Of a stretch of 64,000 bases of DNA, positions 54,066-64,000 are shown piece by piece. The first letter of the stretch is position 1; every line of letters begins with the position of its first letter. The stretch covers positions 2,047,501 to 2,111,500 of the forward strand of contig JACQXA010000004.1 in assembly GCA_016208975.1 (NCBI GenBank). The letters are read 5' to 3'. The translations under genes were made by a program, and so were the position numbers. Source of the DNA: Nitrospinota bacterium (GTDB lineage Bacteria > Nitrospinota_A > UBA7883 > JACRLM01). Below the pieces are notes generated by a model. It did not search any database and was not told where the DNA came from. It saw only the letters and a program-made list of their open reading frames with translations.

Positions 54066-54115
54066 TATACTCCCTATTGAAGAGATTCGATGAATTTTGC
54101 GGGGAAAGTGTTTTA

Positions 54116-54163
54116 TGGTGCCCTCGGCGAGATTCGAACTCACGGCCTACGGATTAGGAATTC
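54116..54163 (-). repeat. attL: 3' half of tRNA-Arg (CCT)
   Basis: On the minus strand the segment reads, from the anticodon loop, TTCCTAATCCGT (anticodon CCT), TAGGC variable region, T-arm GTGAG-TTCGAAT-CTCGC, acceptor CGAGGGC, A, CCA. The 5' half (acceptor strand, D-arm, 5' anticodon stem) is missing: the 5' stem base ACGAA no longer pairs fully with TCCGT and beyond it the sequence is unrelated. This is the copy left on the chromosome side when an element integrates into a tRNA 3' half. Confidence 0.85.
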
Positions 54164-54188: not shown

Positions 54189-54286
54189 AAGACCTTTGCG
54201 GTCGTCACTAAGACCTTTGATATATAAGGATAATATGCTATAAGAAGTCCGAAGGCCGCCTAGTGAGTTTTAATTCTAGTGACGAC
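54189..54286. repeat. Direct and inverted repeats between att site and integrase
   Basis: AAGACCTTTG occurs at 54189-54198 and 54210-54219 (21 bp apart, two helical turns). GTCGTCACTA at 54201-54210 is matched by its exact complement TAGTGACGAC at 54277-54286. The position suits integrase arm-type or excisionase sites, or autoregulation of the integrase promoter. Confidence 0.55.
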
Positions 54287-54317
54287 CCGGCGACTACCAC
54301 GGAGGCTAAGGCATAGC

Positions 54318-55559
54318 ATGAAAACCAAACTCACCAAGTCCGTAATTGACAAAATTCCATTCTCGAACGATGGCCGTTTGATGCTCATTGATACCGAGCT
54401 CAAAGGTTTCGGTTGTCGTGTGGGGAAATCGTCGAAGGTCTATTTCGCTGAAAAGCGGGTCAATGGTAAACCTGTTCGTGTCACCATCGGCAAGCATGGC
54501 CAAATCACTCCTGAACAGGCCAGAGAGGAAGCCAAAGCGATTTTAGGGCAAATGTCTGGCCGAACCGCTTCTAATCCCAATGAGGAGAAGAAACAGGAAC
54601 GTATCAAGGGGATAACGCTTGCCGAAGCCTTGGAGGAATTCAAGCGGGCCAGAAGTTATCTGAAAGCCAGAACCATCAAGGATTACGAATACGCGCTTCA
54701 AAAATACTTTTCCGATTGGCGGGGGAAGCCATTAACCGCAATTACGCGGGAAATGGTTGATAGCCGTCATAAGCTTATTGGTAATGGAAATGGTGGCGCG
54801 GCTCAGGCGAATCAGGCTATGCGCTTTCTGCGGTCGCTTTATAACTACGCCATTGGGAAATACGGGCGGGAAGTCGTTTCAGTCAATCCAGTGGAAGGAT
54901 TAACTCTGACCCGCTCCTGGTTCAAGGTAAAGAGAAAGCAATCCATAATTCGGCCCCACGAGTTGCCAGCGTTGTTTGAGGCGTTGGAAAAGCTGGTTGC
55001 TGAAAGCCCTTATGAAAGCACGCGGACGTTTCGGGATTACATTCTTCTTTTACTGTTTACCGGCTTGAGGCGAAACGAGGCTTTAAAGCTGACCTGGGAT
55101 ATGGTGGATTTCGAGGGGAAGACCTTCAAAATCGCCGACACAAAGAACAACGAGCCTTTGATTCTGCCCTTGTCCAGTTACCTTTTCGATTTGCTGAACG
55201 AGAGAAGCAAAAACAGGAATGGCAGTGATTACGTTTTCCCCGGAAGGAATCCAGAGTTGCCATACGCCGATCCCACGCGGCAACTGGACAACCTGAAAAA
55301 ACTCTCCGGCCTTGAATTTGCCCTTCATGATTTCCGGCGGACGTTCATCACGATTGCCGAAAGTATAGATTTGCCTTATTATGCGCTTAAACGGCTGGTG
55401 AATCACAAGATGGGAAACGATGTGACTGCGGGATATATCGTTCACGACGTGGAGCGGTTGCGAAGACCGATGCAACAGATCACGGACAAGATACTGTTCG
55501 AGGCAAAGCAAATTGGAATCGGCAACGTCATCGAATTCAAGAAGGGAACTAGAAAATAG
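54318..55559 (+). CDS. int: Tyrosine recombinase (island/prophage integrase)
   Basis: A 413-aa integrase of the P4/DUF4102 type. N-terminal arm-binding domain (residues 1-90; LTKSVIDK, GFGCRVG, GKHGQITPEQAREEA), core-binding SAM-like domain (100-185) and catalytic domain with the full set R251 (TGLRRNE), K276, H337-x2-R340 (LHDFRRTF), H363 and nucleophile Y373 (TAGYI). It should be active. It lies 155 nt inside the attL copy of tRNA-Arg and reads into the island. ATG after GGAGG with wide spacing; earlier in-frame codons lie in the repeat cluster. Confidence 0.94.
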   Translation: MKTKLTKSVIDKIPFSNDGRLMLIDTELKGFGCRVGKSSKVYFAEKRVNGKPVRVTIGKHGQITPEQAREEAKAILGQMSGRTASNPNEEKKQERIKGITLAEALEEFKRARSYLKARTIKDYEYALQKYFSDWRGKPLTAITREMVDSRHKLIGNGNGGAAQANQAMRFLRSLYNYAIGKYGREVVSVNPVEGLTLTRSWFKVKRKQSIIRPHELPALFEALEKLVAESPYESTRTFRDYILLLLFTGLRRNEALKLTWDMVDFEGKTFKIADTKNNEPLILPLSSYLFDLLNERSKNRNGSDYVFPGRNPELPYADPTRQLDNLKKLSGLEFALHDFRRTFITIAESIDLPYYALKRLVNHKMGNDVTAGYIVHDVERLRRPMQQITDKILFEAKQIGIGNVIEFKKGTRK

Positions 55560-56459: not shown

Positions 56460-57617
56460 ATGATTGATTGGGTGACGGCGGTGGTTCCATGTTTCAGCGC
56501 TGACCCGGATAAGCTGAACGATGGCTTGATATGCCGCATCCGGCCTGATGGTGAATATGAATGGGCCAAGCACGTTCCCATATCCGTTGTCGGCTCCCAT
56601 GACGCCAACATGCGCGTTAGTTACCATCCCATAAGCAAAGGTTCCGGTTATATAGGCCCCGCGCTTCGTATTGATGGCAATCCCGCGAAATGGCTTCAAG
56701 GTCACAATATCTTCGGTTCAAGTGACCTAAGTGGCCTTATTTACGCCGTACTTGAAAGGCTTGTCGCAATTCTGGAATTACAGCCAGACGAGCAAGAAAC
56801 AGATTCCTGGAAAAGGGGCATGTATCATATTTATCGCGTTGATTGCACGGAAATGTGGGAATTTCCAACTCACGCCGATGTGCTGGCATGGCTGAACGCG
56901 GCTCAGTTTCAATCGAAAAGCCGCCACGGTAAGCCGATTATGACTGGCGGAACGCTATATTTCGGCAAGAACTCACGACGCTGGTCATTAAAGTTTTACA
57001 GCAAGGGAGAAGAAGTCAACCGACGAGATAATCCCTTGCCGGCATCTCTCCCGTTCAGAAATATGTTGCTTGAATTCGCGGACAACAAACTCAGAGCCGA
57101 ACTGGTTCTAAGAAGACCCCAGCTGGAAAAACTGAACATAAACATGGCGTTCATCTGGAAGCTTGAAACACCGAAACAACAACTTCTTGAGCATCTTGCG
57201 ACGCTGGATATGGCGGATCAATTTCTGCTTACAACCAAGCAGATTGATGGATTATTGCCGAGGCTTCAGCTTGCCTACAAATCTTGGCAACGTGGGGAAG
57301 ACTTGCGTTCTATGTTCGGCAAAAGCACTTTCTACAGATACAGGCGTGAAATGCTAAAACATGGGATAGATATCAGCGCTTCTTGTGAAGATAGGCAAGA
57401 GAAGAAAATGGCTCTACGGGAAATTTTCAAGAATGAACCGGCGCAAATTCCAGAGTGGGCAATTAGAACGGAGATTTTGTTTCAGCCTCTATTGTCAGAA
57501 AGTTCTGTGGGAGACAGCGGCCACGACGCAATGGCGATGGGCGAGCCGCATGGCCGCCCTAGCCATGCGCCCGGCGCCGCCTCCTCCGAGTGCGGGCATA
57601 GTAATACCGCACTTTAG
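56460..57617 (+). CDS. Filamentous-phage-like replication initiator (gene II/X family)
   Basis: A 385-aa protein with the features of phage CRI/G2P replication proteins: MIDWVTAVVPC at the N-terminus, VDCTEMWEF, YFGKNSRRWSLKFYSKGEEV in the centre, LRAELVLRRPQL, and a C-terminal helical X-domain (FYRYRREMLKHGID). The family nicks double-stranded DNA and starts rolling-circle replication. No inovirus morphogenesis gene (Zot/pI, coat protein) is present in the island part seen. The last 50 residues are low complexity (GEPHGRPSHAPGAAS) and may be a composition-shifted extension. Confidence 0.8.
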   Translation: MIDWVTAVVPCFSADPDKLNDGLICRIRPDGEYEWAKHVPISVVGSHDANMRVSYHPISKGSGYIGPALRIDGNPAKWLQGHNIFGSSDLSGLIYAVLERLVAILELQPDEQETDSWKRGMYHIYRVDCTEMWEFPTHADVLAWLNAAQFQSKSRHGKPIMTGGTLYFGKNSRRWSLKFYSKGEEVNRRDNPLPASLPFRNMLLEFADNKLRAELVLRRPQLEKLNINMAFIWKLETPKQQLLEHLATLDMADQFLLTTKQIDGLLPRLQLAYKSWQRGEDLRSMFGKSTFYRYRREMLKHGIDISASCEDRQEKKMALREIFKNEPAQIPEWAIRTEILFQPLLSESSVGDSGHDAMAMGEPHGRPSHAPGAASSECGHSNTAL

Positions 57618-57681: not shown

Positions 57682-57710
57682 TTGACAGACGCTATGGATG
57701 GCTATATTAT
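57682..57710 (+). promoter_or_regulatory. Consensus sigma-70 promoter of the cargo operon
   Basis: TTGACA and TATTAT with the optimal 17-bp spacing, 43 nt before the 57-aa gene and 65 nt after the replication gene. It is the best promoter match in the window and gives the defence-type cargo its own transcription. Confidence 0.65.
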
Positions 57711-57753: not shown

Positions 57754-57927
57754 ATGGCAAAGAATAAGCCGTACGGTGATAACGCAAGAATTGGGGCTGT
57801 AACTGGCCGTTCGCAGGTGTTCAATCCACATAACGAAAAGTGGACGAAACGGGATACGGAAAGCGGGCGGTTCATGGATCAAAAGGCTGATGACAAGCCA
57901 TTCAAAGGCGTTAGCAAGGAGAAGTAG
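57754..57927 (+). CDS. 57-aa basic protein of unknown function
   Basis: A short gene with a good AAGGA ribosome binding site 6 nt upstream of ATG. The product is hydrophilic and charged (MAKNKPYGDNARIGAV, RSQVFNPHNEKWTKRD, GRFMDQKADDKPFKGV), with no Cys, TM or HTH. The composition and the KPFKGV end look like a conserved family of small proteins seen in proteobacterial genomes, function unknown to me. First gene after the consensus promoter and 14 nt before the AlbA_2 gene. Confidence 0.7.
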   Translation: MAKNKPYGDNARIGAVTGRSQVFNPHNEKWTKRDTESGRFMDQKADDKPFKGVSKEK

Positions 57928-57941
57928 GCTGATAGCTCTTT

Positions 57942-59222
57942 ATGATCTATTCTAAGACGATTGAGGATTTGACTTGGAATGATGTCGAATCCTTTTGTTC
58001 CCGTGGTGTCGCGGAAAACGCTTATCTTGATTACAAAGAGAGCTTTCCAAAAAATCTTGAAAAGACTATTGCCGCCATGGCGAACACCTTCGGTGGAATC
58101 ATACTGGTTGGGATTGAAGAAGACAAGAATAATAAGCCGGTACAGCCAATAAAAGGCATTGAGTTAGAACGCGGGCTGGAGGAAAAAGTAATCAGTATCA
58201 TCCTTTCCAACATTACTCCACCCATTATCCCTGAAATAAAGGTGTGTCCTGACGGTGAGGCTCAAAAGGCCGTGGTTGTTATTCGAATTCCACAAAGCCA
58301 GCAAACACCCCATGCCATAAATCGGAATACTAAAGTTTACATCCGGACTGGAAATAGAAATGAAGCGAAGGAACTTGAAGACTTGGCGACTCTGGATAGA
58401 ATAGATTGGTTAAAGGAACATCGGAAGAAAAGCGAAGAATTAAAAATATTTCTCTATCAACAGGCAGAGCGTAGGGTTGAAAAGTCATATTCTGACAAAA
58501 AAGTAGAAAATGACGAAAGCGCCAAACGTTTAAAAGCAATGTACGGACGGTTATCCGCTCCGCTGGCGTTGTTTACGCTTTCAATGTGTCCTGTTTTTCC
58601 ACAAGAGCCATTCCTTAATCCGCCTGCAATTGATAAGCTTTATTCAAAGATTCGAATCCGTGATTATTATGGAAGTAGTGATGGCGGATTTCCATTGCCT
58701 GGGCGTTCGATGGGATTAATAGTAAATGATGGAAGCATAAACACCTTGGTATTTAAAGATAGAGACGGTTTTTGGCACACTGAACTGAATATTTTCGGAT
58801 TGTATTTTTATAGGCAGTCTCTTTTGCATGGTACAAAGAGAATCGAGGGTAAGGAATATTCCGTTATTCGAACAAGCGAGGTGCTCTGCCGTCTTGATGA
58901 ATATATTGACTCGGCAGCGCTCTTTTACAAGGAAATTGGATTCCAAGGATTATTGGAATTTCGCGTAAACTTGGAAAACTTATTTGATCATGGGAGAATC
59001 GCATACCTTGGGAAATATCCGGATGATGGATGCTGGTCTTCAGGGCCTATTTCCACCTCACTGGATCAATCTGTTTATTTTTCCGATATAGTTCAGGCGG
59101 GGGTGTTACACGATATTAAAATGCCTCTTATCTATAATGCCGCCAAGAAAATTGCATGGGCGTTTGGCTGGGATTTAATAGAGACTGCAATTGATAAATA
59201 TTATGAAAAAGAGAAGCGTTAA
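57942..59222 (+). CDS. AlbA_2/Schlafen-like putative DNA- or RNA-binding protein
   Basis: A 426-aa protein. Residues 5-135 are an AlbA_2 (Schlafen-fold) domain: YLDYKESFPKNL with the E-x-K of the nucleic-acid/nuclease site, then IAAMANTFGGIILVGIEED and a VYIRTGNRNEA end. The remaining 290 residues have no recognised domain, show no helicase or ATPase motif, and are aromatic and AT-rich. Schlafen-fold proteins include tRNA nucleases and phage-defence components. It is 26 nt upstream of the mod gene, in one operon, so an accessory or separate defence role is inferred. Confidence 0.75.
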   Translation: MIYSKTIEDLTWNDVESFCSRGVAENAYLDYKESFPKNLEKTIAAMANTFGGIILVGIEEDKNNKPVQPIKGIELERGLEEKVISIILSNITPPIIPEIKVCPDGEAQKAVVVIRIPQSQQTPHAINRNTKVYIRTGNRNEAKELEDLATLDRIDWLKEHRKKSEELKIFLYQQAERRVEKSYSDKKVENDESAKRLKAMYGRLSAPLALFTLSMCPVFPQEPFLNPPAIDKLYSKIRIRDYYGSSDGGFPLPGRSMGLIVNDGSINTLVFKDRDGFWHTELNIFGLYFYRQSLLHGTKRIEGKEYSVIRTSEVLCRLDEYIDSAALFYKEIGFQGLLEFRVNLENLFDHGRIAYLGKYPDDGCWSSGPISTSLDQSVYFSDIVQAGVLHDIKMPLIYNAAKKIAWAFGWDLIETAIDKYYEKEKR

Positions 59223-59248
59223 AACGGAAAGCGTTGGGGGATTTGGGA

Positions 59249-61213
59249 ATGACTGAACAACCGAAGTATGGGCCGGGGAATCCGCACCCGCTTTCCACAA
59301 TGAAGACGGAACTTGTGTGGGAAGGGAAGTATGACGAGTACGGAAACAAGCGGGAGGTGGATATTTCCGGCTCCGCCATGCCTATGCAGAGGATAGAGAC
59401 CATTGATGAGCCCAGGAGCAGGCTGGAATCCCAAGGGGAGCTTTTCAACGCCAAGAAAGCGCATACCGATGATTTTAGAAACCGGCTTATTTGGGGTGAT
59501 AACAAGCTGGTAATGGCTTCCCTCCTGAAAGAATTCAAGGGAAAGATTGACCTTATCTATATTGACCCTCCATTCGATGTTGGCGCTGATTTCACGATGG
59601 ATATTCCCATCGGCGATGAAAAAGAAACCATCGAGAAAGACCAGTCAACCCTTGAAATGGTTGCCTATCGTGATATGTGGGGGAAAGGAACGGATTCTTA
59701 CCTACATATGATGTATGAGCGACTTTCTCTAATGAAGGCTCTACTAAGCGAGAAAGGCAGTATTTACATCCATATAGATTATAGAGTAGCAAGTTTTATT
59801 CGCCTCATAATGGATGAGTTGTTCACTAAGGATAATTTTCAGAACCAAATTATGTGGTGCTATAAAGAGAGAGAAAGAGTTCTGGATAAATACAATCCAA
59901 AGCATGACGTAATTCTTTTTTACTCAAGAACAGATTCTAAGCTAAGGCCATTCAATTGGAAGTTTGCAGCTGAAGAATATTCTGAGATAACTAGAAAGAA
60001 ATTTAAGTATCAAGATGAAACGGGATGGTACCAAATTCGTGGTAAGAACAGAAAAGATAGTCCAGTGCAGGCCGCAGATGGACTTACACCGGAGCATGAA
60101 GCGAAATACCCAGGTTTAACCTTTAGAGATTACTTGCACGACAGAGAAGGGGTTCCCCCACGTGATTGGTGGACGATTGGAATTATTAATAAGGCGGCTG
60201 ATGAAAGATTGGGATATAGCACTCAAAAACCAGAAGAATTGATTGAGAGGATAATTCAGGTATCCTCCAACGAAGGCGATCTTGTTGCTGATTTCTTCTG
60301 TGGATCAGGGACAACTGGCGCAGTCGCAGAGAAGCTGGGGCGGCGCTGGATAATGAGCGACTTGGGGCGGTTTGCCATCCACACTTCCCGCAAGAGGATG
60401 ATAGAAATACAGCGGGACGCTCATGTGAGCGATAAACCTTATCGAGCCTTCGACGTTTACAACCTTGGACGGTACGAACGTCAATGGTGGCAAAAAGAGC
60501 GGCTCAACGGGGCGGATGAAGAGCATCGGCGGGTGGTGCTTGAATTCTTCAAAGCCGAAGTATTGACCAAGACACCATCACCTCTTATTCATGGAAAAAA
60601 GTCTGGCGATTTTTGCCACGTTGACGGGATAGACAGTATCTTTACCCGTGAAGAGGCCAAGGAAGTTGCCAAGGCCGTTCAACAGGCTGGCGGGAAAGAG
60701 TGCTATTGCCTGGCATGGGAATTTGAAATGGACTTGCGGCTTGCCACCGCCGCGCTGGAAAAGGAGTTTGGCGTAAAGCTTAAACTAATCCCCATCCCGC
60801 GCGAGATAATGGAGAAGAACCGAAAGGAGCCGCCACCATTCCTTGAAATGGCCGTGCTGGAAGCCGAACCAGTTTATAAAGGCGATGGCAAAGAAAGAAC
60901 TGTGGACATCAAGATCACCAAGTTCATGCCCTCTTTGCAGGAAGTGCCCAGCAAGGAACTGGAAGCCCTGAAAGAACGGGCTATAAAAAGCGGAATAGAT
61001 TTTATAGATTTCTGGGCGGTGGATTTTGCATGGGAGCCGGGCAAGCCGTTCAACCACCATTGGCAGGATTACCGCACACGAAAAGACCGGAGCCTTAAGA
61101 CCGTGAGCGACGCTACCCATAAATACGAAACGAAAGGCAAATACACCGCCTGCGTGAAAGTGGTGGATACTTTTGGGTGTGACACCAGCGTTACGGTGGA
61201 AATAACTATATGA
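59249..61213 (+). CDS. mod: Type III restriction-modification DNA methyltransferase (Mod)
   Basis: A 654-aa adenine-N6 methyltransferase. Motif IV is DPPF (residues 106-109) and motif I FCGSGTTG (350-357) comes later, the beta-class order of type III Mod enzymes; the stretch between holds the target-recognition region (200-320). The last 50 residues (KYETKGKYTACVKVVDTFGCD) have a PKD/Ig-like look found in several such Mods. ATG after GGGA; an in-frame TTG five codons upstream is possible. Res follows, but an NYN gene is inserted between them. Confidence 0.92.
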   Translation: MTEQPKYGPGNPHPLSTMKTELVWEGKYDEYGNKREVDISGSAMPMQRIETIDEPRSRLESQGELFNAKKAHTDDFRNRLIWGDNKLVMASLLKEFKGKIDLIYIDPPFDVGADFTMDIPIGDEKETIEKDQSTLEMVAYRDMWGKGTDSYLHMMYERLSLMKALLSEKGSIYIHIDYRVASFIRLIMDELFTKDNFQNQIMWCYKERERVLDKYNPKHDVILFYSRTDSKLRPFNWKFAAEEYSEITRKKFKYQDETGWYQIRGKNRKDSPVQAADGLTPEHEAKYPGLTFRDYLHDREGVPPRDWWTIGIINKAADERLGYSTQKPEELIERIIQVSSNEGDLVADFFCGSGTTGAVAEKLGRRWIMSDLGRFAIHTSRKRMIEIQRDAHVSDKPYRAFDVYNLGRYERQWWQKERLNGADEEHRRVVLEFFKAEVLTKTPSPLIHGKKSGDFCHVDGIDSIFTREEAKEVAKAVQQAGGKECYCLAWEFEMDLRLATAALEKEFGVKLKLIPIPREIMEKNRKEPPPFLEMAVLEAEPVYKGDGKERTVDIKITKFMPSLQEVPSKELEALKERAIKSGIDFIDFWAVDFAWEPGKPFNHHWQDYRTRKDRSLKTVSDATHKYETKGKYTACVKVVDTFGCDTSVTVEITI

Positions 61214-61322
61214 AAATGCAATGGTTATTGATATTATGCTAACAATTATTGAATGGGAAAGCGCATTCTCATATAATAAACGCAGGGAAGAGGATCAATA
61301 TCCCATAAAAAGCGCAATTGCT

Positions 61323-61381
61323 CCCCGTTCGACTTGTTTGAAGGCTGAAAGGCTGGATAACCTCGGACGGGGTTATTTTTT
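61323..61381 (+). terminator. Hairpin with T-run between mod and the NYN gene
   Basis: CCCCGTTC (61323-61330) pairs with GGACGGGG (61365-61372), one G-T type mismatch, followed by TTATTTTTT. It ends only 10 nt before the ATG of the NYN gene, so it acts as a partial terminator or attenuator separating mod from NYN-res expression. Confidence 0.6.
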
Positions 61382-61390
61382 GGGGCCCCT

Positions 61391-61969
61391 ATGGTAACTG
61401 AACCTACAGTTAAACGGGCAATCGTATTCTTCGATGGGCAAAACCTTTATCACTCCGCCAGAGAAGCATTCAACCGTTCTTATCCAGACTTCGATCCTTT
61501 GAAGCTCGCAAAGAAGATTTGCGAGATGAAAGGATGGCAACTGCATCAGGTTCGTTTCTATACAGGCATTCCCGATGAACAGGATAATGCCCATTGGCAT
61601 CATTTCTGGATGGCAAAACTTGCCAGCATGGGCAAGCGAAGGATTTTTACTTTTTCAAGGCCGATCAGGAACGGCAAGGAAAAAGGAATTGATATACGGA
61701 TCGCCCTTGATATGGTGCGGCTTGCCAGGCATGGCAATTATGACGTGGGAGTTGTATTCAGCCAGGATCAGGATTTGACGGAAGCCGTTCAGGAAATAAA
61801 AGAACAGGCGTTCATTTCCGACAAGTGGATAAAAATCGCTTCCGCGTTTCCAGATAGTTCTGTTTCCAAAAATAAAAGAGGAATTAACGGGACAGATTGG
61901 ATACGTATTGATTCCGCCCTTTATACATCGTGCCTTGATCCCAACGATTACAGAAAGCCGGGAGTATAG
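61391..61969 (+). CDS. NYN-domain (PIN-like) nuclease inside the type III RM locus
   Basis: A 192-aa single-domain protein of the NYN/DUF88 (LabA-like) family. Acidic and polar active-site residues are present: IVFFDGQNLYHS (D15, N18), GIDIRIALDMVRLA and VVFSQDQDLTEAV. Members are metal-dependent RNases. The gene ends directly before the res ATG (stop and start adjacent), with GGAG inside its last codons, so the two are translated together. It lacks the cold-shock domain of the other NYN protein in this window. A role in defence is inferred from position. Confidence 0.85.
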   Translation: MVTEPTVKRAIVFFDGQNLYHSAREAFNRSYPDFDPLKLAKKICEMKGWQLHQVRFYTGIPDEQDNAHWHHFWMAKLASMGKRRIFTFSRPIRNGKEKGIDIRIALDMVRLARHGNYDVGVVFSQDQDLTEAVQEIKEQAFISDKWIKIASAFPDSSVSKNKRGINGTDWIRIDSALYTSCLDPNDYRKPGV

Positions 61970-64000
61970 ATGAGCGAAATAATAATCAACAAGTCGGCGC
62001 TGGCTCCGCTTTATAAATCATGGGAAGAGCCGAATGCTCATAGGGTGCGGTCTAAAGATAAGGACGCCCCGGCGGAAATAGCCAAAGGACGGAGGCCATC
62101 ATCCATTGTTATCGCTCATAACCTTAGAGCGATGATCAAGGAGTGGCGGGAAAATGGATATTTTGGCGCAAGCGATACCACCCGGCATCTTTTGAACCAC
62201 TGGTTTGGCAGAAGCCATATCCGCTCCACTCCCGCTGGGGAGGAATTTGAGTTTCGTTATTACTTCTGTCAGCGTGAGGCGATTGAAACGCTGATCTATC
62301 TCAAGGAAGTCAGGAAACTTGAATATCTTTCCCAGCTTTATGACGAATTTGGCGGCGAGAACAGGGAAATTGCCGCATTAGGTATTACCGAAGAAGAAGA
62401 CGCATGGAGCCGATATGCCTTCAAACTAGCCACAGGTTCGGGCAAAACGAAAGTAATGAGCCTTGCTATCGTATGGAGTTATTTTCATGCCTTGCGTGAA
62501 TCTGATTCACCAATGGCGAAGCATTTTGTTGTGATAGCCCCGAACATCACTGTTTTTGAGCGGCTGAAGGAAGACTTTGGCAACGGGAAAATATTTGATG
62601 AAGATCCACTTATCCCTGTCGAATGGAAGGGAGACTGGAACCTTTCAACCGTTTTACAGGATGAGGCGGGGCAATCCGTAACAGGAGGGACGCTTTATCT
62701 CACCAATATTCACCGCCTTTACGACTTGGAAAAGCGAAAGAAAAAGCAGGAAGATGAAATGTATTCATGGGCCGGACCTCACGTCTCGAAGGCAAAGGCG
62801 CTGGATACCGGAGCCTTGTTGCGTGACAGGATAACCAGCCATCGTAATGTGATGGTGCTAAATGACGAAGCTCACCATGTATGGGATCCAGATTCGGCTT
62901 GGAATGAAGCAATTAAATACATACATGAGACAGTTAGGAAAAAGACGGGCGGAGGAATAGTCTCCCAACTTGATTTCAGCGCAACGCCAAAAGATAACAA
63001 GGGGAATATTTTTAAGCATGTCGTTTGCGATGCGCCGCTGGGCGAAGCGGTTGACGGTGGGATTGTAAAAACCCCTGTTATCGGCAGAGGAGGAGAATTA
63101 AAAGAAGTCGCCAATGACAGCGCGGCTTATAAATTCGAGCATCATTTGCGAATTGGTTATGAACGGTGGCTTAAAAGCTGTGAGGAGTGGCAACCTAGTG
63201 GCAAGAAACCACTGATGTTCGTGATGTGTGATGATACGAAAGCCGCTGATGAAATCGCCCAACGCTTGAACAGTGATGTTATTTTCAAAGATTTGAACGG
63301 TCTCGCAATAAACCTGCATACCAATCTCAAAGGAAAGATCAAGAACGTTGGCAAGGGGGCCACAAAGCATCAAGTGTTTGAGGAGAGTGAAAAGGAAATC
63401 AGCGATGAGGATTTGAAAGAACTCCGCAAATTGAGCCGGGAGCTGGATTCAAATACCAGCCCTTATAAGTGCATTGTTTCAGTCCTTATGCTTCGAGAAG
63501 GTTGGGACGTGAGAAACGTAACAACAATAATTCCATTGCGCCCTTATAGTTCAAAGGCAAATATTTTGCCAGAACAAACGCTTGGGCGCGGTTTGCGGCG
63601 AATGACCCCACCAGGGCAGGCAGAAGAACTTGTGACGATTGTGGAACATCCCGCCTTCGCTAGCCTGTATCAGCAGGAATTGGCTCAAGAAGGTGTTTTG
63701 GTGGATGTAGTGGATGTTGATGACGTGCCGCAAACTACAATTTCCATTTTCCCGGACGCGGGCAATAAAGATTTAAAAGCGTTGGACATCAAGATTCCAG
63801 TTCTTGCCGCCGCCCATAGACCCGTTCCCAAGATTGAGAATCTTTCTATCGAAGACATTAAAAAGAAGTTTGCGGGATTATCCAAACTTCCATTGGGGCG
63901 CAAGGGTAAGACCGAGATTGAGTATGAGGGCAGGGCGCTTTTCACTAATGAAGTTGTGGAAAGAATGAAAGTGAATATTCAGCTTTTGGAAAGCGGCCCC
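61970..64000 (+). CDS. res: Type III restriction enzyme, Res subunit (partial, C-terminus beyond window)
   Basis: The 677 codons seen encode a superfamily 2 helicase: Walker A ATGSGKT (156-160 GSGKT), DEAH box NDEAHHVW (299-302), motif III FSATP (337-339), and motif VI QTLGRGLRRM near 525. The nuclease (PD-D/ExK) domain expected at the C-terminus lies outside the window. With Mod it forms the ATP-dependent type III complex that cleaves after finding two unmodified inverted sites. ATG directly follows the NYN stop with GGAG 5 nt upstream. Confidence 0.93.
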   Translation, partial: MSEIIINKSALAPLYKSWEEPNAHRVRSKDKDAPAEIAKGRRPSSIVIAHNLRAMIKEWRENGYFGASDTTRHLLNHWFGRSHIRSTPAGEEFEFRYYFCQREAIETLIYLKEVRKLEYLSQLYDEFGGENREIAALGITEEEDAWSRYAFKLATGSGKTKVMSLAIVWSYFHALRESDSPMAKHFVVIAPNITVFERLKEDFGNGKIFDEDPLIPVEWKGDWNLSTVLQDEAGQSVTGGTLYLTNIHRLYDLEKRKKKQEDEMYSWAGPHVSKAKALDTGALLRDRITSHRNVMVLNDEAHHVWDPDSAWNEAIKYIHETVRKKTGGGIVSQLDFSATPKDNKGNIFKHVVCDAPLGEAVDGGIVKTPVIGRGGELKEVANDSAAYKFEHHLRIGYERWLKSCEEWQPSGKKPLMFVMCDDTKAADEIAQRLNSDVIFKDLNGLAINLHTNLKGKIKNVGKGATKHQVFEESEKEISDEDLKELRKLSRELDSNTSPYKCIVSVLMLREGWDVRNVTTIIPLRPYSSKANILPEQTLGRGLRRMTPPGQAEELVTIVEHPAFASLYQQELAQEGVLVDVVDVDDVPQTTISIFPDAGNKDLKALDIKIPVLAAAHRPVPKIENLSIEDIKKKFAGLSKLPLGRKGKTEIEYEGRALFTNEVVERMKVNIQLLESGP

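Follow-up and report, generated by a model that had tools for sequence, protein, structure and literature searches.

The window analysed here, a stretch of 64,000 nucleotides (bases 2047501-2111500 of its contig, in a 2.97-Mb genome) from a Nitrospinota bacterium, runs at its right-hand end into an integrated element. This element is a tRNA-Arg island of 14.9 kb with a 47-bp direct repeat at both ends and a GC content of 45%, against 56% for the part of the window to its left. The closest public locus, with an NYN protein 93% identical, belongs to a Nitrospinota MAG. The features of the locus are as follows, the last of them lying beyond the window.

54115-54161, no strand assigned: attL, the 3' end of tRNA-Arg(CCT), 47 identical bases, direct repeat
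54279-55559, + strand: tyrosine integrase of the island (Pfam Phage_integrase, E 5e-20)
56460-57617, + strand: G2P/Phage_CRI-type rolling-circle Rep of a mobile element (PF05144, E 4e-54; TIGR01629, E 3e-52)
57682-57710, + strand: promoter-like site of the 57-aa, AlbA_2 and mod unit (TTGACA-17-TATTAT, 11/12 matches)
57754-57927, + strand: 57-aa protein, PADLOC candidate PDC-S38 (E 7e-32, residues 1-57, full length)
57942-59222, + strand: AlbA_2/Schlafen-type protein, 426 aa (PF04326, E 1.9e-18)
59234-61213, + strand: type III Mod, DNA adenine methyltransferase (PF01555, E 2e-42; PADLOC MTase_III, E 5e-235)
61249-61277, + strand: sigma70-like promoter-like site of the NYN gene's own (TTGAAT-17-TATAAT)
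61310-61386, + strand: conserved leader RNA hairpin with T-rich tail (cmsearch with model R1, 60 bits, E 5e-13)
61391-61969, + strand: NYN ribonuclease, 192 aa (PF01936, E 2.4e-14, 54.5 bits against a cut-off of 24.2)
61970-64000 (window end), + strand: Res, type III restriction subunit, BPTD_3080-like (ResIII, E 1e-14)
69001-69047 (window-equivalent): attR, the partner repeat, at the 3' end of the tRNA-Arg(CCT) gene (L018:15002-15078)

The genes of the island run in the order integrase, a 196-aa protein, HTH_17, G2P-type Rep, the 57-aa protein (PDC-S38), AlbA_2, Mod, NYN and Res. Res is followed by a 77-aa gene with a PemK-like toxin, a 485-aa protein without a Pfam match, and Fic (window-equivalent 65525-68807; L018:11525-14807). 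An Actinomycetes MAG locus (L068) combines an integrase, an RNA-NYN cassette, a Mod-like methylase and a G2P-type Rep resembling the one on the window's island, possibly on the same kind of mobile element. The 57-aa protein is common on plasmids, by a divergent WYL-domain regulator (Klebsiella, Marinobacter), and is also found within defence islands (Phocaeicola); a literature search found no account of PDC-S38.

A preliminary description had placed the 57-aa gene, AlbA_2, mod, NYN and res in that order on one strand, behind a consensus promoter and with NYN abutting res, and had read the whole as one operon. Open reading frame coordinates and profile matches confirm the order, a good promoter-like site does lie at 57682-57710, and the ATG of res at 61970 directly follows the NYN stop codon with 0 nt between them (...GTATAG/ATGAGC...). 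A single simple operon does not describe the locus, as the 177-nt gap between mod and NYN contains a second, internal promoter-like site and a conserved leader hairpin with a U-rich tail, the leader being missed in that description. Mod and a ResIII-helicase Res on one strand, with the NYN cassette between them, constitute a type III restriction-modification (RM) gene pair. This much is common to type III RM systems with a Res of the BPTD_3080 family, from which the window locus differs in its longer Res C-terminus and in the inserted cassette. The full Res of 1145 aa ends at about 65407, beyond the window (L018:7970-11407), and its match to NF046055 (E 1e-67) falls below the cut-off. For a PD-(D/E)xK nuclease in its C-terminal part, the signs are a TnsA-like match at 824-879, below threshold, and an ETKG motif that can be read in the residues.

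The NYN protein also matches PADLOC HEC-09 (E 1e-13). Both PDC-S38 and HEC-09 are profile candidates only, and the leader RNA is part of neither as far as the library shows. No sequence relatives of NYN were found among solved structures at E 0.01. An AF2 model (pLDDT 95.9) is closest to VPA0982/2qip (Z 16.1), followed by the NYN domain of MARF1 (Z 13.4). The active site is predicted to consist of D15, D101 and D126; among 48 NYN sequences D15 is nearly invariant, and D101, D126 and D128 are invariant. These three predicted residues match the Asp triad needed in the CRISPR-associated NYN of B. fragilis (PMC11346440), so that, judged from sequence and model, the protein is likely to be an active RNase. 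Although it has the fold and the triad in common with MARF1 NYN, VPA0982/2QIP and the B. fragilis enzyme (PMC11346440), it belongs to a subfamily of its own, with extra invariant residues and a conserved leader RNA, and is not CRISPR-associated here. Profile searches for PrrC homology (ABC ATPase plus anticodon nuclease) gave NYN-type matches only, and the protein is an NYN rather than a member of the ToxN/CptN/TenpN family.

The leader immediately 5' of NYN has a stem in which CCCCGTTCGA (61323-61332) pairs with TCGGACGGGG (61363-61372) and is followed by TTATTTTTT (61373-61381); the U-rich tail stops 9 nt 5' of the NYN start codon. When the 5' flanks of NYN homologues were taken from many phyla, the same element was present almost everywhere, with the consensus A-YTTGCTCCCCGYYCGACAYGCCGNAAGGCCTCGGGCGGGGTTATTTTTT. 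The evidence for the leader is comparative, as the folding energy of the window hairpin by itself is unremarkable (z -0.6). In a 43-row alignment 95.6% of cells are paired, and double-sided changes occur in 8 of the 13 pairs. The covariation score is 0.361 against 0.170 +/- 0.012 in shuffles, none of 500 of which reach the observed value, and slid controls score no higher than 0.112. Inner loops swap GNAA- and UUCG-type tetraloops, and U-G pairs in the outer stem are in keeping with transcription in the NYN sense. Searches of 13 loci against Rfam 15 returned nothing at the leader's position up to E 5, and the window locus gave no match at the gathering threshold; no Rfam identity was found for the leader. 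Elsewhere, a near-threshold match to the Rfam Acido-Lenti-1 RNA lies 3' of an NYN gene (L047:4078-4122).

Sigma70-like sites stand 5' of the hairpin more often than expected: of 61 sites, 79% reach a score of 9/12 or more, compared with 9% of shuffles (mean 9.2 of 12 against 7.3). The -10 box most often lies 12-17 nt from the stem, as it does at about half of the 61 sites, and the transcript is thus predicted to begin about at the hairpin. After the stem at least six of nine bases are T in 41 of 47 loci. The tail is weak in some lineages (e.g. L055, L059, L066 and L070), which means that termination does not hold throughout; a simple terminator scan omitted the window leader because of its long loop. 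The distance between start codon and stem is 9-46 nt for nearly all loci. In the interval between hairpin and start codon a canonical Shine-Dalgarno sequence is absent in 34 of 47 loci, and Shine-Dalgarno-like sites occur in the other 13. Given these varying distances and the 13 loci with sites of their own, Shine-Dalgarno sequestration is not uniformly supported as a general mechanism.

The association of the leader with NYN was followed with R1, a covariance model of the leader; about 16 of the loci that it matched lay outside its training set. R1 matches 53 of 56 public loci fetched by the NYN protein, from at least 14 phylum-level groups, and the matches lie nearly always within about 100 nt 5' of NYN. 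The sole exception (L072) has its leader 1.4 kb from NYN with an opposite-strand gene between, yet the leader is conserved. The window's own genome contains exactly two strong matches, one before each NYN paralog, the second paralog being solitary, between proA and a sensor kinase. In 289 other genomes, R1 matches at E<1e-8 precede NYN or an NYN remnant; of the weak matches inspected (E 1e-7 to 1e-3), which were left out of the counts, the majority are not before NYN. RNA and NYN distances are correlated across 41 loci (Mantel r 0.47, 0/5000 permutations). One close match on plasmids (Methylobacterium) has the leader, and in viral sequence NYN was found on one viral contig and in the phage collection not at all.

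A few loci depart from the common layout. At L036:3701-3861 the whole unit of promoter, hairpin and T-tail is present as a tandem duplicate before a single NYN gene. A similar promoter, hairpin and GGGGTTTTG leader precedes a 289-aa STAS-like protein, not NYN, at L104 (G143:C51:61740-61812), a possible reuse of the leader before another gene. In a distant NYN relative (L216, G346:C113:67485-67991) a TTGACA promoter-like site is likewise present, and a large GC-rich hairpin of another kind lies directly 5' of the start codon; leaders of their own may therefore exist in other NYN subfamilies too.

Leaders also outlast the gene. In one phylum, 13 of 95 genomes carry 16 copies of the RNA, and NYN is deleted or broken in 10 of the 16. 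In the same phylum every close NYN with a readable 5' flank has the leader hairpin; the NYN of G292 has no R1 match but a diverged leader hairpin like that of L075. Copies lacking an intact NYN include L192, L193, L194, L200, L202, L203 and L206. A nucleotidyltransferase-like gene follows the leader in L200 and L202, and a type I methylase-like fragment in L193 and L200. This pattern is compatible with frequent loss of a costly RNase, and also with an RNA antitoxin that is necessarily lost last; the asymmetry is partly one of ascertainment, since the survey started from the RNA.

The order mod-NYN-res occurs in three genomes only, those of the window, of its family relative and of one member of the same class (L018, L027 and L022). 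In the NYN tree their NYN proteins form one clade, to which the solitary paralog is sister. Recurrence of this order in unrelated islands had been put forward as the mark of a real system, and restriction to a single lineage as its refutation; the order is confined to this one lineage, and phylogeny and distribution together argue against a dedicated mod-NYN-res system. Nor are the 57-aa and AlbA_2 genes constant parts, both being missing in the third locus (L022). Outside the clade the RNA-NYN cassette is mostly solitary, and a minority of NYN-RNA loci lie beside recognised defence genes. The cassette is found within type I RM operons (L028, L074, L056, L059 and L064), where NYN lies between hsdM and hsdS or between hsdS and hsdR, and within one BREX-like operon (L046). 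These embedded cassettes sit on different branches of the NYN tree; the cassette has entered RM operons repeatedly and independently. Before hsdS in G052, all that is left is the leader with the final codons of NYN, which makes NYN dispensable for the operon. Tallies of PADLOC families list type I methylase and specificity subunits for the near neighbours and HsdR for the far neighbours; as both come partly from the same operons, these are family counts and not a formal enrichment.

The majority of NYN homologues are not adjacent to res, and the majority of Res relatives are without NYN. Outside the clade, the nearest long Res (L142, 60% identity) comes from an empty, NYN-free site, and is one of about ten Res relatives in which mod directly adjoins res. 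In others the gap carries a nucleotidyltransferase (with a HEPN-like partner, judged by eye), AbiEi/AbiEii, BRO-N, GIY-YIG, DUF3800 or unassigned genes: in this Res family the junction of mod and res serves recurrently as a slot for cargo. Cargo-bearing gaps were seen at L144, L150, L151, L153, L154, L156, L158, L159 and L088, with an MBL-like gene among the cargo. The DUF3800 gene in the slot lies on a Thermus plasmid; an Rfam search of that locus gave no match, and a literature search on DUF3800 together with RM found nothing helpful. The DUF3800 RNA motifs are structured RNAs upstream of DUF3800 genes. Like the NYN leader they tie a structured RNA to one protein family, but both protein and RNA differ.

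The main finding is the leader RNA, which has no counterpart in Rfam 15 and is strictly linked to NYN. What the sequences show is the anatomy of the cassette, the covarying hairpin, its near-exclusive place before this NYN subfamily, the co-divergence of RNA and protein, repeated and independent entry into RM operons, and frequent loss of NYN while the RNA stays. Because the same pair of hairpin and NYN occurs in many phyla, the RNA is probably a built-in control element of NYN. The explanation that we prefer, with a probability of roughly 0.55 as a whole, is that of an inserted promoter-RNA-NYN cassette, its RNase restrained by the leader, which serves as defence cargo and has brought res under the leader as well. 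The mobile tRNA-Arg island carries the type III RM operon, and a self-contained cassette, comprising a promoter, a structured RNA at the 5' terminus with its U-rich tail and the gene for the NYN RNase, would have been inserted precisely between mod and res. NYN would be an active metal-dependent endoribonuclease whose output the leader RNA holds down, the hairpin being placed where it could attenuate transcription, cover the start region, or both. NYN probably binds or cuts the hairpin, so that its expression would be self-limited. The cassette would act as accessory defence cargo, a growth-arresting RNase. As res starts right at the NYN stop codon, it is probably under the same leader in this lineage and separate from mod, which would split restriction from methylation.

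A rival reading, tentative at best, makes the hairpin a trans-acting RNA antitoxin: freed by the terminator-like tail, it would inhibit NYN until phage takeover depletes the RNA and unleashes the RNase. RNA and NYN would then be a new RNA-protein toxin-antitoxin or abortive-infection module, horizontally spread across many phyla and taken up more than once by type I, type III and BREX-like operons, to which it would add another layer of defence, a proposal that we likewise hold to be possible rather than probable. The layout of promoter, RNA, terminator-like tail and RNase gene is that described for type III toxin-antitoxin systems (PMC5086642), and such systems (ToxIN, CptIN, AbiQ) resemble RNA-NYN also in their association with defence. 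The T-rich tails of most loci, the conserved RNA of L072, split from its gene, and the occurrence of toxin-antitoxin modules in the same mod-res slot point the same way, as does the rarity of NYN without a leader hairpin beside the ten orphaned RNAs of the phylum surveyed. RNA-NYN nevertheless has one hairpin per locus, two promoter-hairpin units being found only at L036, where type III systems have a repeat array; no pseudoknot was seen, the toxin fold is NYN and not ToxN, and tails are poor as terminators in several lineages. Retention of the RNA may stem from its small target size as well as from searching with an RNA query. Control in cis is favoured over a trans antitoxin by about two to one, since nearly all loci have one hairpin only and it lies against the start codon; what keeps the trans reading alive is the unit duplicated in L036, together with the orphan RNAs.

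It is unlikely that the locus is a composite type III defence system in which NYN, in physical association with Res and Mod, would be the dedicated effector. The 0-nt junction of NYN and res favours this, and PrrC, an RNase whose gene lies within a type IC operon (PMC3874165), sets a precedent. NYN resembles PrrC of EcoprrI in being an RNase gene within RM operons (type I and type III), but it is an unrelated protein with its own promoter and RNA leader, and it occurs not only in RM operons of several types but also in a BREX-like one and by itself. Mod-NYN-res is moreover a single clade, Res and NYN mostly occur without each other, the junction at 60% identity is NYN-free, and the leader belongs to NYN in particular. 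What stands of the original view of NYN as a defence RNase is the accessory role, made plausible by the MARF1/VPA0982 fold, the Asp triad and several independent insertions into RM operons; the role of dedicated type III partner does not. Slightly less probable still is a hairpin that here serves mainly to insulate, as a terminator or regulator uncoupling res from mod (methylase first, restriction later), with NYN having little to do with defence: the window tail is TTATTTTTT, res needs transcription through it and the geometry is the same in type I operons, but the hairpin is also kept before solitary NYN genes with no restriction gene 3' of them, and its conserved sequence (GAC bulge, GGGGTTATT) is more than a terminator needs.

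A conserved RNA that has no Rfam entry and goes with a single RNase family offers a direct and cheap test of RNA control of NYN nucleases, and the mod-res junction, as a cargo slot, is a place to seek further defence modules. Control of NYN by its leader, if true, would give bacterial defence a new RNase, one gated by RNA, and would explain how restriction operons can acquire an RNase gene while the host survives.
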